This document shows positions 33,729 through 43,089 of a stretch of DNA of 64,000 nucleotides, piece after piece. Source of the DNA: Corynespora cassiicola (lineage: Eukaryota > Ascomycota > Dothideomycetes > Pleosporales > Corynesporascaceae); the NCBI GenBank assembly GCA_022059125.1, contig JAEUWY010000016.1, positions 868,001-932,000 of the forward strand, written 5' to 3'. The notes under the pieces are model-generated. The model was not told the DNA's origin. It made no database searches and saw only the letters and a list, made by a program, of their open reading frames with translations. The stretch's first letter is position 1. Every line of letters starts with the position of its first letter. A program made the translations under genes and the position numbers.

Positions 33729-36488
33729 CTATAGTGAAGCTAGAGATAATTTGATCGCTGAAAACTCCTCGTACCAGTCATCGAAAAGAAGATGGAAGTT
33801 GAATAGGTCAGGATGCATACAACCAAACATTTTCCCCCCAAGCTGCAAGAACTTTTCCATGGTCGAGATAGCCTTCCAGTATTGTCCTTGGTATTTATAA
33901 AGCATTGCGAGTTTTCCCATGTTGATAAGCAATTCAAATGTCGGTTCCTTCTTCCAGTTTGCATGTAATATTATTACACGAATCAGGAGACTTCTGGCTT
34001 CATCTCACCGATGAAATCTAGTCATTTCCATCGCTCTAGCACTCAATGCTGCAATGCCTTCCGGATTATTGATCTCTCTGAGTACTAATGCCTGTGACTC
34101 AAGTTCTTCAGCTTCTTGATACCGTCCCTGAAACCATATACAGCATTCTTGCTTCTGTTGAATAACATCTATGCTCTGGTCCGCATACTTTAATATTTTT
34201 TTGGATATTCTGATCGTTTCCCCCAACAATTGTTCCGCTTTTCTGAAATATCCGGTCATAGTGTATATATTTGCAACTAAAACCATTGATCGAGCTGTTT
34301 TCTTGCTGTCAGGGCCGTGTATCTGAGCACAAGTCTCCACCAAACCTTCCGCCAGGATTAACGCCTCTTTGCAACGTCCTTGTTTGATAGAAGCTTGAGC
34401 TAAGTAAGAGTTACTTGAGAGAGTAAAATTAGATTCAGGTCCAAGTTTTTGTCTAAAAGCAGCGCTTGTCAGCTGTAGAATCAAGCGAGCTTCTTTATAT
34501 CGCCCCTGCAAGAACCATATTCGGCCTAGGCTGTCCATGTCAAAGATTGTGTCCAAATTGTTTACACCAATCTTTTTGATCTTCGAGATGACAACGGCCT
34601 TATACATGAGTTCTGATTCTTTAAAGTTCCTCCTTCTTTCGTAGCTAGAAGCCAGATTTACTCGGGTATTCCACACTTGAGGATGATCTTGGCCGTATAT
34701 ATCCTCTCTTGTCTTGAGAATTTGTGTCAACAGATCTTCTGCTACTGGATTTCCAGTTACAAGGTATATACCCGCCAATCTATCGACCATAAATTGTGTT
34801 TGAGGATGGTCCGGACCGTTTATCTCCTGTTGCATGCCCACAAGGCTCTTCATTGTATCCTCAGCTAATGTATGACCTCCCTTGAATGCTATGGCTTCTG
34901 CTCGTAATGCGATGGTAGCTAACACATTGCGGTCGTGCTGGCCAAACAACTCAGTACCAATTGGAATCAAGAAATCCAATATCGAAACCACATCATCATG
35001 GTTTGCCGAAAGAGCCGAAAATCTTGCTGCGAGGGTCATGAGATAAAACCATTCCTTCCTTGAAGCGGGTTCCGCTGGTAGATGCATCAAAGCCGATTTG
35101 ACATGCGGGAAATATATTCGAATTCTGTCCCATCCTTCATAATCTTTCTTTGGAAACTTCGCGAGCATGTTCGAGATAAAAACACTCTTCCAGTGCTCCA
35201 GTAGCTCTTTGCGTTCAAGCCACTTTTGCGTAGCGAGTTGGACAAGCGCATGCATATCAAAAGTGGTGGAACCGTTCGGCCATGTGGTGGTACTGTTTGG
35301 CGATGTGGTGATGAATGAGAAGTTTTCTAACATCAGGATATCGTCTTCGAATTCATCAGGAATATTGTTCTCAAAGCCTGAACCAAAATCCACATTGACG
35401 CCGTTCTGAAGTAGATCTTGTGGAATGCCTTGGCGGTCGAACAAGCTCATCAAAGATAATAAGTCAGCAGCCGATGGTCTGGTCGTCAATATATGCTCAA
35501 AAGAGATTTGCCAGGTTATTAGAATTGAACTGCTGGCATCATCATCTCTTTGATTATCCCCCCCCATCATGACGTAGTAGCGCTGTCTTGCCTTTGTTGT
35601 TTTTGTTGAATTTTTCGAGGTACCCCTGCAGGGTATATCGCGAACGATGTTGGTTAAGGAAAGCTCTAGCTTGAATAATAGCAAGAGGCATGAACTCAAG
35701 TGCGGCTGCAAGTTGTTCTAGATTGTCTTGATCTTTGTTCTCTCCGACGATACCCCGGAGAAGAGTCACTGCATCTGTGCTGTTCATTGGTTCAATTCCA
35801 ATGATATTTTGAGGTTCGCCGATAAGTCTTTGGGCAATATCTCTATTTCGACTTGTTAAAATGATCGATCCATGGTCTCTTACAGGAACATATATGGAGA
35901 GTTGTGGGTTCCTGGACTTCTGCGGAAAGATGGCTGTGTCGTCAATGTTATCAAACACCAAGAGCCATTTTCCGTTGTTATCGTCGTCCAACCAATTGAA
36001 CATCAGTTCAAATATATTCGCTTTGGAGTCTTCGCATCCACGTAATTTGACTCGGTTCGCAATATGTCGGTAGCTCTGCTCAAGTCGGGCCAGGTTGCTG
36101 CCATGGACCCAAAAAACCCATCTAGACGGCAAGGTCTCTGCTACGCGATAGCAGTACTCGATTGCAATTCGGGATTTTCCGACACCGCCTAGACCGACCA
36201 GAGCTATGCGTGATGCTGGGACGGCGCATCTAGTATTGAGGTCCTGGAGAAGCGTTCCGCGCTCGACGAAATCCGTCCCACGAGGGTAAGGAATGACCAG
36301 AGAAGGTTTCAAGCGCAGTTGAGAATTATCTATAGTTGATAGGTAAGTTTTGTAATGTATTAGAGATCAAAATCTGTCTCACAAGGCTGGGGATAGAAGT
36401 TGTTGGTGACATGGCTGTTCTCGACATTCCCTGCCTGGAAACTGCTACTGCTGTTACCTAGATTGAAGCGGCTGTTGCTTTGTGACAT
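33729..36488 (-). pseudogene. STAND NLR (NB-ARC-TPR) with N-terminal amyloid-like motif, disrupted by frameshift and stop
   Basis: Exon 36383..36488, a 53-nt intron, then a long exon from 36329. The first ~35 residues are Asn/Ser-rich and contain FQAGNVENSHVTNNF. An NB-ARC domain follows: P-loop GLGGVGKS at about residues 81-88, Walker B WLLVFDNIDD at about 157-166, LTSRNRD, and MPLAIIQARAF. After it come the typical WQISFEHI..TRPSAADLLSLMSLFDRQGIP region and tetratricopeptide repeats down to 34008. Two lesions are present. A G8 tract (plus strand 35558-35565) shifts the frame and gives a stop at 35554, leaving a 293-residue product unless one base is absent. An in-frame TGA at 34005-34007 precedes 91 further open codons ending at 33729. 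In this family ligand sensing by the repeats drives nucleotide-dependent assembly that seeds a cell-death effector. Intact elsewhere, so it may be a recent pseudogene, an allele, or an assembly error at the homopolymer. Confidence 0.85.
35558..35565 (-). other. G8 tract causing frameshift in NLR
   Basis: Eight G on the coding strand. Seven would keep NB-ARC and downstream TPR regions in one frame. Confidence 0.8.
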
Positions 36489-36724
36489 TGTGGTTTTGAA
36501 ACAATGGTATCACTAAGACAGAAGTGGAGTCTCTGGGTGATGAAGCGGGGAATAGATGTACAAGGCCGAGAGGCAATTAAATTCTGGGAAGGTGCCGGCG
36601 GTCATCTGATCCTCCTCGAAGCGAGACATGTCAGCTTCAGCCTTGTCAAGGCTTTCAGACCCATCTTTGTCTTCTAAAGAAACGAGCAGCTTTGAACCCA
36701 ATTTGGTTTATTAAATACATCGGA
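36489..36724. promoter_or_regulatory. Divergent promoter of the NLR / HELL-like pair
   Basis: 236 bp between the two start codons. The shared region suggests co-expression. No clear TATA box; an AT-rich TTTATTAAATA stretch lies just before the + strand start. Confidence 0.6.
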
Positions 36725-37634
36725 ATGTCGGATATCGTTGGCCTCGCCGCTAGTATCGTCACACTTGCAAGTCTCGCCTTACAGGGGGGAGCTCTTTTAC
36801 TTGACGAAATCAATAACTTCAAGGATGCCCCAAAGGCTATTCAGAGCCTCGAGGATGATGTTTCATCTACTGAATCCATCATCAATTCACTCAAGGAGAT
36901 GAAAGGTTCGGATTGGACGCTCCTAGGTCCGACAGTAGCCCAACAGACAAAGGTGGCTATCAACGACTGTGAAAAGGCTTACCGTAGTTGCCGAGAGAGC
37001 ATTCAAGACATGACACGACATTCGAAAGAGGAAAGACTATCGATTCGAGACCAAGTCAAAGTCAGCTTCTTCAAGGAACGACACCTGAAGGCAATGGCTG
37101 GACGGCTCCACGCTTGTAAGCTATCGTTAAACTCGGCAGTTGTTGTAGCCACACTGTGAGTTTACATCAACTAGCAACTGCAATTAGGACCCCAAGCATT
37201 TTCTGACAGATGACGACAGGTACATCTCCGTACGCCATGGATCCATCAGCGAGGAAATAAAGCAGCAGATCTCGATCAGAGAAGCAGAAGTCGTGAATAA
37301 CCTCAATTCAACAGACACGCAACTAATCACTACGAACGGAGAACTTGAGACCGCAAACCTAGAAGTGGCTGCTATCGAGTCGGATCACGTTTACAATAGG
37401 GCGCTAAATGTGATCAATCAAATGGAAGCTGAGCGGGACACGCTTGAGTGTTCACGTGGATTGCTTGAAGAACTTCGAAAGAAGGTTTGCATAGAGGAGA
37501 TAGAGAAGGCTGCAAAAGGTAATGAGGAGCGCATCACCTCCACAGTAACAATGGGAGATAACTTTCGAGGGGTGCAGACTGGGTTTGTCACTAATAGCAC
37601 CATAACAAATACATTTGGAGGAATGTCAACATAG
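36725..37634 (+). CDS. HeLo/HELL-like cell-death effector with C-terminal amyloid-like motif
   Basis: Exons 36725..37155 and 37220..37634 (64-nt intron), about 281 residues. The start MSDIVGLAAS is chosen over an upstream in-frame ATG because it opens the family's hydrophobic first helix. Residues 1 to about 140 match the fungal N-terminal STAND / HeLo-like type: a hydrophobic helix (IVGLAASIVTLASLALQG), DEINNFKDAPKAIQSLEDDV, and a helical bundle. A coiled, charged region follows. The last ~25 residues contain GDNFRGVQTGFVTNSTITNT. Aligned without gaps, Q263 onward matches the NLR N-terminus at 8 of 14 positions (Q.G.V.NS..TN.F). In known fungal systems such a motif is templated into amyloid by the NLR, and the helical domain then permeabilises membranes. 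The gene has no NB-ARC domain of its own, as expected of an executor. Function inferred, not shown. Confidence 0.82.
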
Positions 37635-38488: not shown

Positions 38489-38577
38489 CGACCACGCCAG
38501 GGATCGAACCTGGAATCTCTTGATGTCTGATGGTTGATACATCGTAGTCAAGCGCCTTGCCATTTGGCCACGCGGCC
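38489..38577 (-). tRNA. tRNA-Arg(ACG) with 17-nt intron
   Basis: On the minus strand the acceptor stem GGCCGCG pairs with CGTGGTC (two G-U pairs), the D stem is GCC/GGC, and the T arm is CCAGG-TTCGATC-CCTGG. The anticodon stem CTTGA/TCAAG encloses C-T-ACG-A, then a 17-nt intron one base after the anticodon, then A. Mature length would be 72 nt including the discriminator G. The long ORF that overlaps it on the same strand is a shadow. Confidence 0.9.
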
Positions 38578-38741: not shown

Positions 38742-39978
38742 TTAGGATAGCCCCTTCCAGGCTGCACGCTGTTAGCGGACCGAAACAAGACTCTGGCCAT
38801 GTGACTTACTCCATACTGTCCGCCCATCGTTCACCTTGGTCACGTTGACCTCGTCTCCGACCTTGAACGTCTGCGTCGGGCTCTTCGGGTTCCAGTAGCT
38901 GTAGCGGCCAAAGACGGGGCTCCACTTTGCGCCCATATCCACCCTCCTGTCCTTTTGCAGCTTCTTCAACACCTCGCCCGACGGGCCGGTTCCGGGTTTG
39001 CCCGTTTCGTAATCAATGTTGATGCTCTTGCACCGCACGCAGTTGTGCTGCATGATGATCTCGGCATCTCTGATCTTGATCCGGCCCCAGAAGTCCTCCT
39101 CCCAGGGCTTGCCTGCGCCCTCGAGTACAATGTTTGGACGGAACTTGGTCACATCCATGTCCTCGCCGTCGGGGAGGCGGGCAGAGACATCCTCGAGGGA
39201 CGTCTTGGACACGATGAGATACGGGGCGCAGTCGGCAAAAGTGATCTGGAACTGCTCGTCGACTGGGATCCCCAGGAACGGATATTTTTGGGCAATTTTC
39301 CTTATCCAGGTGGGCCGGGGCGGGAGGACCATGTCTTCAAAAAGCACATTGCGCCTGTTTTCGCCCAAATAGACGAACAGCACCTCGTAACCAAAACAGG
39401 ACGTGAACCAATCGTTATACTTGGCAGGCATCTTGTAGGCCTGTGTGGGACTGTTGTGCATGGTGACCTCGAACGGCTCCAGTTTTTCGACATCGGGCAG
39501 TAACGGCACTTGGAGAGTTTTTGTTTGGTCAGCGTTGCCAAAGGCCTTGAATTTGACCGTGATGGAACCGCTTCCGCTGTTGTCCGTCTCGATCTCGGTC
39601 AGGAATTGCGTCATCTCGGGATAGCGGGATACGGCCATGTTCTTGTAACCGTCTGGAGTAACCTCGAGGAGCATGAACCTCCCTGCAAGAGGTTAGAAGG
39701 GCTCGAGTGTGGCTGCGCAAAAAACGTACGATCGTACTGGAACCCATGTTTTGTGGCGACGGCCTCGGGGACCTTTGTGGCGCGCAGGGACTTGATGGGA
39801 TAGACGTAAATCTCCAGGGCTGTCAGCAGTGGCGTGCCAGAGGGTACCCCAGACGGCCTACCTCGCTAATCTTCATGGGTTTCAGGTTATTGAGGAAGAC
39901 GTGCAGAAAGCTGGCCAGTCGGTACATGAGGACGGGGGCCACGAGTAGCCCCGCCACCAGATAGATTGTAGCCACCAT
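38742..39978 (-). CDS. MOSC domain protein, mARC-like molybdenum enzyme
   Basis: Complement of exons 39862..39978, 39730..39811, 38810..39682 and 38742..38761, about 363 residues. An N-terminal membrane helix (TIYLVAGLLVAPVLMYRLASF) anchors the protein. The beta-barrel N-terminal MOSC part follows (IYVYPIKSLRA, GFQYDRRFMLLE), then the MOSC domain with FADCAPYLIVSKTSLEDVSARL, KFRPNIVLEG and QHNCVRCKSINID..TG. The Cys in NCVRC is the expected molybdenum ligand. Relatives reduce N-hydroxylated compounds with cytochrome b5 as donor. The first intron must use the acceptor after CCCTGGAG to keep frame into IYVYPIKS. The last exon encodes only six residues plus stop; reading through the donor would give an alternative tail. 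Confidence 0.9.
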
Positions 39979-41144
39979 GTTGGGCGGCAGTGTGGTGAAG
40001 GAGAGAGAGCTCGGAATGCGAGGGACAGAAATTGGTGACCGACCGCAGGATGAAGCCTATATACCAAGCCCACGTGCGCCCTACCAACGACTACAGGCTA
40101 CGCCATGGGAGATAAGAGCCGAGGGGGAAGCTCGGGACCGCCTTTCCCGTCCTAGCCTAAGCGGGGGCTCGGTAGTGGCCAGCCAGCACGAGGGGAGTTG
40201 GTTCATCGAAGATGTGTGTCAGCACGTGACGAGCAGCGTCTATCACGGGCGGCCGTCGACAGCAACGCCAACACCTGGATGCCCACGTCTGCCTGCCATT
40301 TGGAGAAGCCGAAACGACTCGCTCGGAGCGCGCGATGAGGGGTTCCTTGGTGGAGGAGTCTCGGTGGGCTGCGGGCGGTGATTGGCGGGCGGCGGCATCG
40401 CTTAGCAGCGTCTGTGAGGTTCCTGAAGGCGAGAAAGCGGGCCAGCGGGCAGCCGCTGCAGGGGCGGAGATCGCAGTGCGAGGCCGACTGGACTGGCTCG
40501 ACGGGACGACGGTGTCATGCCAGGATACCGGGACGGCGAGGTCAAGTGAGTGTGGCTGTGCGCTTCACGATGGCTGCGGGAAGCATGCTCGCGCACGCTG
40601 TTCGCCAGCTGGGGACCGCCGGGGTCGCTGGTGGAGGGCCTTGGCAGTGACGTTTTGGCCGGATTGGTCTCCACGCAACCCAAACTTCGCCGCCCCATGA
40701 GTGCGCCTAGTCCTGACAAGACGCCCTCAAGAAGCCTGCCATTTCCACGTGCGTCTTCGACTCTTACTCGACCCTTCGCTCTCGTCCCCATGAGTCCTCG
40801 CTCCGCTGCCTGCCCTCCGTCTCTCTGCTCACCCCTCCGCCACTCTCGTTGAGCGCCCAAGGCGCGCGCGCATTTCTCCGTCAGCCTGGTTACTTCAGCT
40901 ACTCTACGTTAAACACCCGCCCTTCACTGCTGAGTCGGCGCCTACACCTCACCGCTTCCTCCCTCTCCATTGACTCGAGCTGCGCTCTTCATCCACTCCG
41001 CCGAGCACCGCTCTCACCGTCTGTTCGTCACGCGCCTATATTCCTGCCTACCTGACCCGCTTGGCTTGCGGGCCAGCGCCGGACTGCTCCCAACCCGCAA
41101 CCACAACCGCAACCGCGCCCCCTCACTCCCCCTCCGCGCCCGCC
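39979..41144. other. Divergent intergenic region, pyrimidine-rich leader toward patatin 2
   Basis: About 1.17 kb between the MOSC gene and patatin 2. From about 40720 to 41144 the + strand is C/T-rich, like a fungal core promoter and 5' leader. The ORFs present are composition shadows. Confidence 0.5.
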
Positions 41145-43089
41145 ATGGCCAACAGCGGCATCCGGCGGAAGGACACCACCAAGGGCCCGCCTCTGCGCAT
41201 TCTGTCGCTAGGTATGTTTCCATTGCCCTCCTGATAAGCCAGGCACTGACGCGGGGCTGCAGACGGCGGGGGTGTCCGAGGATACTCCATGCTCATCATC
41301 CTCCAGGAGCTCATGCACCGCACTTTTGTCGAGATGGAAGGCCGCGCCCCCAAGCGACACGAGATCCCCAAGCCATGCGACCACTTCGACCTGATTGCGG
41401 GGACAGGCACCGGCGGCCTGATCGCCATCATGCTCGGACGCCTGCGGCTGGACGTTGACACGTGCAAGGACGTGTACGTGCGGATGACCAAGCGCGTATT
41501 TGAGACCGACAAGACTTTTGCCGGCATTCCCTACCGCTCGACCCTGTTCAAGGCCTCGAAGCTGGAGGAGGCCATCATGGAGTGTGTGCGCGAGCACACC
41601 ATCTACGAGGATGAGGGCAACGACAGCATCAACGCCATGGTGTCGTCCTCCGACGTGCGCACTCCCATGTCCCCCGGCAGTGCCCTCGGTGGCAACACCG
41701 TGCAGAGGAGCGCGAGCAACGCCAGCAGGTACAGCCAGATTGGCATGTCTCCGGTGAACATGCGCATTGCTGCGCTCAAGTGGGGTAACCCTAATGCCCA
41801 GCTTTATGACACCAGGGAGGAACGTACCAAGACGTGAGTCAGTCGCATCTGCTCGAAACTTGCCGAAGCTAATGATGCACAGTGCTGTCACCGCCGTATA
41901 CAAGGGTACCAAGAAGGCCGGTACTGGTCAGATCCTCCTGCGCTCCTACGACTCGCGAAAAGAAACCTCTGTGGAGCCGAACGCCACCATCTGGCAGGCA
42001 GGCCGTGCGACCTGCGCGACTGCCTTGGCCTTTAAGCCCATCCAGATTGGCCAGTCCGTTTTCCTCGACGAAGGTGCCGGAAAATACAACCCTGCCCCTC
42101 AGATCCTCGATGAGGCCGTGGTCAACGAATGGCCGGGGCGCGAGGTCGGCTGCTTCATCAGCATCGGCACCGGGAAACGTCCCGAGGGCACCAACCAGCA
42201 ACAGCATCTATGGTGGGAGGGCTTTGTGTCGAGCGGCATGGGCGACTTTGCAGAGGCCAGGCGCAGACTGATTAGCAAGATTGAAGACTGCGAAAGGACC
42301 CATCTGTCCATGAAGGATCACCTGGCCAAGCGCCAGGTCAACCCCGAGCACTACTACCGTCTGAATGTCAACGTTGGCGTGGGCGAGTTTGGCATGAACG
42401 AGTGGAACCGCCTCGCCGAGATCAGTACCAACACGCGCATGTATCTCGCTGAGTCGGAGATTCAAAGTCAGAACTTGGACGCGGCCGCAAAACTTGCCCG
42501 CATCCACCGCGCAAAGATACGCTGGGAGCGTGCAGAGAGAGGACAACCGCCCGCGGGGCCAAAGATCAATCCCTGGGAGCGACCACTGCCTGCCGTCCCC
42601 AACGCATCGTCCTTTGCCGTCGAGCTCCCCGCCGACGACGTCACGCCTGATTTCTACACCCAAAATCAGGACTACAGCATGCTCTCCCCCTCGCACTACC
42701 GCCAGCCCTCGGACGCGGAAAAGTACCTCGTCGTCTCCTCGGATGAGTACCCGCAGCCCGCGACCGACATCCCGCCCCGCCACTCGGGCGAGCTCGTTTC
42801 CCCCAACCGCCGCTCCGCAGAGCAATTCACCCACGGAGGTATCAACTCAATCCACAGCTCCCCGCGTCTAAGCTTCGAGGAGCCCCACCGCACGAGCCCC
42901 CCACCCCGCCCCCCAAAGACGCCCCTCCAGGACGGAAACAAGCCTCAGGGTCTCTCTGGCCCGCCGACCCTGCCGCCAGCCGGGTCCACGCTGCCTAGGC
43001 CGCCGTCCGGGGCACCTTTGCCGTATCCGGATGACGATGGGCCGCCGCCGGTTGTGAATAAGGCGCGGAAACCAGAGTATATACGGTAG
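41145..43089 (+). CDS. Patatin-like protein 2 with Ser-to-Gly nucleophile replacement
   Basis: Exons 41145..41211, 41263..41833 and 41883..43089, about 614 residues, introns 51 and 49 nt. The oxyanion loop DGGGVRGYSMLIILQEL begins at Asp23, its codon split by the first intron just as in patatin 1. The nucleophile elbow reads GTGTGG, with Gly71 where the catalytic Ser belongs. The Asp motif is DEGAGKYNP. HYYRLNV and the WERPLPAVP region follow, then a long Pro/Ser-rich tail with PPPRPPKTP, a possible SH3-binding segment. The fold seems intact but ester hydrolysis by the usual dyad should be lost; a binding, scaffold or regulatory role is possible. No signal peptide. Confidence 0.9.

Follow-up and report, generated by a model that had tools for sequence, protein, structure and literature searches.

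Fungal cell death by NLR receptors that hand an amyloid fold to a partner executor is well described as a general mechanism. In Podospora anserina, the N-terminal segment PNT1(1-31) is reported to form a prion and convert the tail of HELLP, which then goes to the plasma membrane and causes cell death (PMC7885112). This system and CgPNT1/CgHELLP/CgSBP of Chaetomium globosum are both described as PP motif systems (PMC7885112). The PP consensus is given as FxGx(x)NxGLQLxGxNxGxL (PMC3321046), with a canonical, pseudopalindromic NxGxQxGxN core (PMC9815663, PMC3321046), and PP-type N-termini are also described for Ascomycota NB-ARC/TPR NLRs (NLR07, PMC9815663). NWD2/HET-S and FNT1/HELLF use the HRAM motif, whose effectors are described as having two 21-residue repeats (PMC4518210, PMC7885112); Corynespora cassiicola is listed with only two HRAM2 proteins, another motif class (PMC4518210). 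Further motifs common to an NLR and its effector are Sigma, found in sesA/sesB/het-eN and described as three A/B repeats, GxGxQFNxx and GGTQNINT (PMC3321046), and PUASM, FxGxGxQxxGxGxF, described with PNP_UDP effectors (PMC9815663).

Here we describe a probable pair of genes of this kind from C. cassiicola, lying in a window of 64,000 nucleotides (contig JAEUWY010000016.1, positions 868,001 to 932,000), to which all positions below refer unless a contig is named. The motif subtype and the broken receptor are new here, and a literature search by title and start of abstract, mostly within journals open without subscription, found no prior description of the pair. The NLR gene occupies 33729..36488 on the minus strand, with two interruptions of its frame. 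Exon 1 (36488-36383) encodes 35 residues and is followed by an intron of 53 bases (36382-36330), an NB-ARC domain (E 8.4e-11) and a TPR part (TPR_12, E 6.6e-26, Pfam profile search). A deposited protein, P0001 (Corynespora cassiicola Philippines, 901 aa), reads through the modelled intron as predicted and is 94-99% identical to the window NLR when the two are compared piecewise, a level that, for this single gene, points to that species or one closely related to it. The adjacent, divergent gene lies at 36725..37634 on the plus strand, with exons 36725-37155 and 37220-37634 and an intron at 37156-37219. It encodes 281 aa in an intact reading frame, and the two start codons are separated by a common upstream stretch of 236 bases (36489..36724). 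The coordinates, strands, frames and gap given for both genes in a preliminary description were all correct on re-reading.

The HeLo-like N-terminus proposed there for the 281-aa protein is supported by a match to PF17111 (E 2.8e-18, 66.5 bits against a Pfam cut-off of 27.2), a family listed as PigL_N in the profile search and named Helo_like_N in PMC9815663. Single-sequence structure prediction gives four long helices at low confidence for exon 1 (pLDDT 65.6), and for exon 2 a single long helix and a tail of low confidence (pLDDT 79.8). Among the matches listed, the solved structures closest to this low-confidence model are generic helical bundles. The models would fit a helical executor domain, and they are compatible with one rather than proof of it.

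The layout follows that described for PNT1/HELLP: the genes are adjacent, the NLR combines NB-ARC with TPR, and the HeLo-like executor is of similar size. The motif is N-terminal in the NLR (1-31 in PNT1) and C-terminal in the executor (214-271 in HELLP), and a G-x-Q-x-G core is present on the executor side. Unlike PNT1/HELLP, the window pair lacks the core Asn on both sides and the core Gly in the NLR, the second half of its motifs is one residue longer, and its NLR frame is broken. In contrast to CgPNT1/CgHELLP/CgSBP, no lipase partner and no second executor are recognised in the neighbouring ORFs tested, and the two ORFs beyond the NLR have no Pfam matches. With NWD2/HET-S and FNT1/HELLF the pair has the layout and, presumably, the general mechanism in common, but its effector has one motif copy in place of the two HRAM repeats, and a six-frame scan of the effector gene finds no second copy. 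As with Sigma and PUASM, the motif is common to NLR and effector; neither of these patterns is seen in the window motifs by inspection.

The NLR motif, QAGNVENSHVTNNF, comprises residues 18-31 as read from the sequence (36396..36437, minus strand), and its counterpart, QTGFVTNSTITNTF, lies within the last 19 residues of the executor (37575..37616, plus strand). They align without gaps with 8 identities in 14, a number that shuffling of the termini reached once in 5,000 trials. A wider local alignment of the two termini scores 47, and 20,000 rounds of shuffling both 35-residue termini never attain it, even though their N/S/T-rich composition is preserved. Shuffles of the entire effector, aligned to all 293 aa of the NLR piece, reach 47 in 25 of 2,000 cases. 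The match is thus strong judged on the termini, where the preliminary description had placed it, and modest if all positions count. The six frames of the window yield 85,029 14-mers without a stop, and the next-best match in this set has 6 identities to the effector motif and 5 to the NLR motif. Among 334,167 16-mers from the window and further loci, with copies of the pair set aside (L009 and L010 repeat the window), each motif's best non-self match is the other motif, with a score of 38; the runners-up score at most 28 and 30 among the matches listed. Used as a protein query against the 44-Mb genome, each terminus recovers itself only. The motif match is real, and goes beyond what tail composition explains.

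The type of motif can be judged against related NLRs. The TPR frame and then P0001 residues 1-290 were searched against a database of 5.8 billion proteins, and the best 120 of 1589 and the best 120 of 496 matches yielded 231 proteins in total. The short-N-terminus pattern fits 126 of these; 15 have no recognisable core, and the other 111 of these best-listed relatives carry a PP-like motif, for example FGDANAGFQAGIINGPVNTTF, at the position of the window NLR's motif. This sample, drawn from the best 120 of each search, excludes P0001, as does a 35-member set, and one of its members, P0198, probably has no true PP motif. The PP-like N-termini agree with the PP class as described in PMC9815663. 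A tree built from 162 NB-ARC domains places P0001 on a long branch, within a group of 40 that has weak support (0.55), and 16 of the 40 members bear PP-like motifs.

Neither window motif has a complete NxGxQxGxN core. The effector reads G-V-Q-T-G without the flanking Asn, and the NLR reads S-F-Q-A-G, without Gly at Q-2. By a rough parse, Asn is present at Q-4 in 104 of the 111 relatives; it is absent from both window motifs. In a profile comparison, as suggested in the preliminary description, both motifs align with the 111-member profile from one end to the other, and the scores are weak (3.0 and 3.5 bits, equalled by 123 and 86 of 5,000 shuffles). The 35-member profile gives 6.2 and 0.6 bits, with 27 and 633 of 5,000 shuffles as good, in a rough control where the NLR query had 100 residues and the shuffles 40. 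Scored against the best single relative, the effector tail reaches 47 and the NLR motif 54, and in each case none of 400 shuffles is as good; shuffles of the NLR motif came near, at 53 versus 54. The likeness to the PP-type NLR07 N-termini, as these are described, extends to the place of the motif, the kind of NLR and the end-to-end alignment. A canonical PP motif was considered and rejected, because the core Asn is missing on both sides, the NLR Gly is missing, the profile scores are weak and the spacing differs, at +9 versus +8. We think that the window motif works like a PP motif, and the RHIM-like leaning of the preliminary description is supported by the effector G-V-Q-T-G and the NLR S-F-Q-A-G.

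What sets the pair apart is a lengthening common to its two halves. Both window motifs have a hydrophobic residue at Q+9, the stretch after the core Gln being one residue longer. In the sample of 111 relatives, this residue stands at Q+8 in 105 and at Q+9 in none; four have no hydrophobic residue there, one has it at +7 (P0198) and one at +10 (P0204). Likewise, the closing Phe is at Q+13 in both window motifs, and the aromatic of the relatives is at +12 in 67 of 111 and at +13 in a single one. The profile aligner inserts the same single residue into both. Total ungapped score does not single out the own partner, since the effector's partner is equalled by 1 of 111 relatives and the NLR's by 3 of 111; the case for co-adaptation thus turns on spacing. 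If the motifs stack in register, which would call for equal strand lengths, templating would require receptor and executor to be lengthened alike. We therefore read the motif as a divergent PP/RHIM-like subtype in which both halves appear to have changed together, and the earlier suggestion of a divergent subtype was right.

The receptor is broken in this strain. Sequence and frame comparison with P0001 place a frameshift at a run of eight G on the NLR strand (35558..35565, minus strand), and an in-frame stop lies in the TPR part (34005..34007, minus strand), about 90 codons ahead of the natural end. Apart from these two lesions, the frame is open, at 94% identity, to the orthologue's natural end near 33729. 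This break is new: the preliminary description missed it, and a working pair in this strain is not borne out. Barring an assembly error, this strain has probably lost the receptor or has it in truncated form. The frameshift could be a sequencing artefact or an assembly error, an explanation less easily argued for the stop. The intact P0001 frame keeps 14/14 residues of the window NLR motif, so the divergent motif predates the break. For the effector, a protein database search found no relatives, and its reading frame has no lesion. With the NLR frame broken and that of the effector free of lesions, the strain may have an executor without its receptor.

By analogy with tested relatives, the pair would act in a series of steps. 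The TPR part would sense a ligand, and the NB-ARC domain would drive oligomerisation of the NLR. The N-terminal motifs, once clustered, may fold into a cross-beta stack, which would template the C-terminal counterpart in the HeLo-like protein. Templating would free the helical domain of the effector, which would then attack the plasma membrane. The domains, the gene layout, the motif match and the common lengthening by one residue are observed at this locus; oligomerisation, amyloid folding, templating and membrane attack are carried over from those relatives.

The class proposed for the locus, an NLR next to a HeLo-like executor and a terminal motif common to the two, is supported by domains, layout and motif match. 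We consider it likely that this is a two-gene NLR/HeLo-like cell-death pair with the PNT1/HELLP layout and a divergent, co-adapted PP/RHIM-like motif, its receptor probably lost or truncated in this strain and its executor frame intact. It is very improbable that the match is instead a coincidence between two N/S/T-rich tails, in neighbours with no common task: the 25 whole-protein shuffles that reach the score would allow it, but terminus shuffles of the same composition never do, the next-best window 14-mers stop at 6 and 5 identities, and the position, strand layout and domains are those of a known class. It is possible, if rather doubtful, that the pair is of the ordinary PP kind and differs by neutral drift, cross-seeding freely with canonical PP motifs and with no role for the equal spacing. 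Both motifs can still be aligned with the PP profile over their whole length, and some canonical motifs match each half as well as the halves match each other; however, drift would have had to strike both halves alike to give the +9 spacing, found in 0 of the 111 sampled relatives.

The lesions raise another question, whether the whole locus is in decay, with the NLR a pseudogene and the effector an outgoing relic without present function in the strain. We regard this as unlikely, if still a serious possibility, for the frameshift and stop point that way, whereas the effector frame is free of lesions, the NLR has an intact orthologue in the Philippines strain and the G run may reflect an assembly error. 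A bolder form of the co-adapted pair is that it makes up an insulated, PP-derived amyloid channel. Its register would have changed jointly, allowing mutual templating but no templating with the canonical PP motifs of other NLRs of the species, and the executor, kept after loss of the receptor, might be triggered by contact with a receptor-bearing strain in the manner of HET-s incompatibility. This is speculative, and we think it improbable.

The separation of amyloid channels is a real question for C. cassiicola, since canonical PP cores are also present in NLRs of the Philippines strain (P0125, P0144 and P0231). How one species separates several amyloid cell-death signals is an open question, and the +9 pair, with a spacing absent from the sampled 111, is a natural case in which to test whether the seeding specificity of PP/RHIM-like amyloids depends on strand length. 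A broken receptor beside an apparently intact executor also lets one ask what restrains an executor without its receptor.

The assembly (44.35 Mb, 23 contigs) gives 36 matches in an NB-ARC search, and the N-terminal side was read for nine of them. By reading, an effector-kind domain (HET, lipase, patatin or PNP_UDP) lies upstream in seven of these nine NLR loci. Pfam confirms HET in L038 and PNP_UDP in L037 and gives sub-threshold matches only for L034 (esterase) and L035 (patatin); the domains in L036, L039 and L040 were assigned by reading alone. Ranked by E-value, the nearest NB-ARC relative within this genome (41%) is the NLR in L014 (contig C15:1158500-1168499), where a HET-domain ORF (PF06985) stands beside the NB-ARC/TPR frame. 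In the same locus, a NACHT/ankyrin-like frame comes after a PF17111 stretch, so that two in-cis architectures lie side by side. L032 (C9:61500-64500) and L033 (C1:425200-428200) are near-identical NLR copies with stop-broken frames and a PP-like first exon in which Glu replaces the core Gln. On contigs C1, C2, C3, C6, C9, C13, C20 and C22, several NACHT/NB-ARC matches are paired at identical scores, across contigs or inverted a few kb apart, and these are either blocks that were duplicated or inverted or copies left uncollapsed in the assembly.

Beyond the effector, the window holds two further genes with no tie to the pair: a MOSC-domain gene (38772-39674, minus strand) and a patatin-like gene (41140-43089, plus strand) whose Patatin match, at E 6e-6, falls just under the cut-off. 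A tRNA lies at 38489-38577 on the minus strand (Rfam RF00005, 51.4 bits); it is not reported by ARAGORN with the bacterial code and probably contains an intron.
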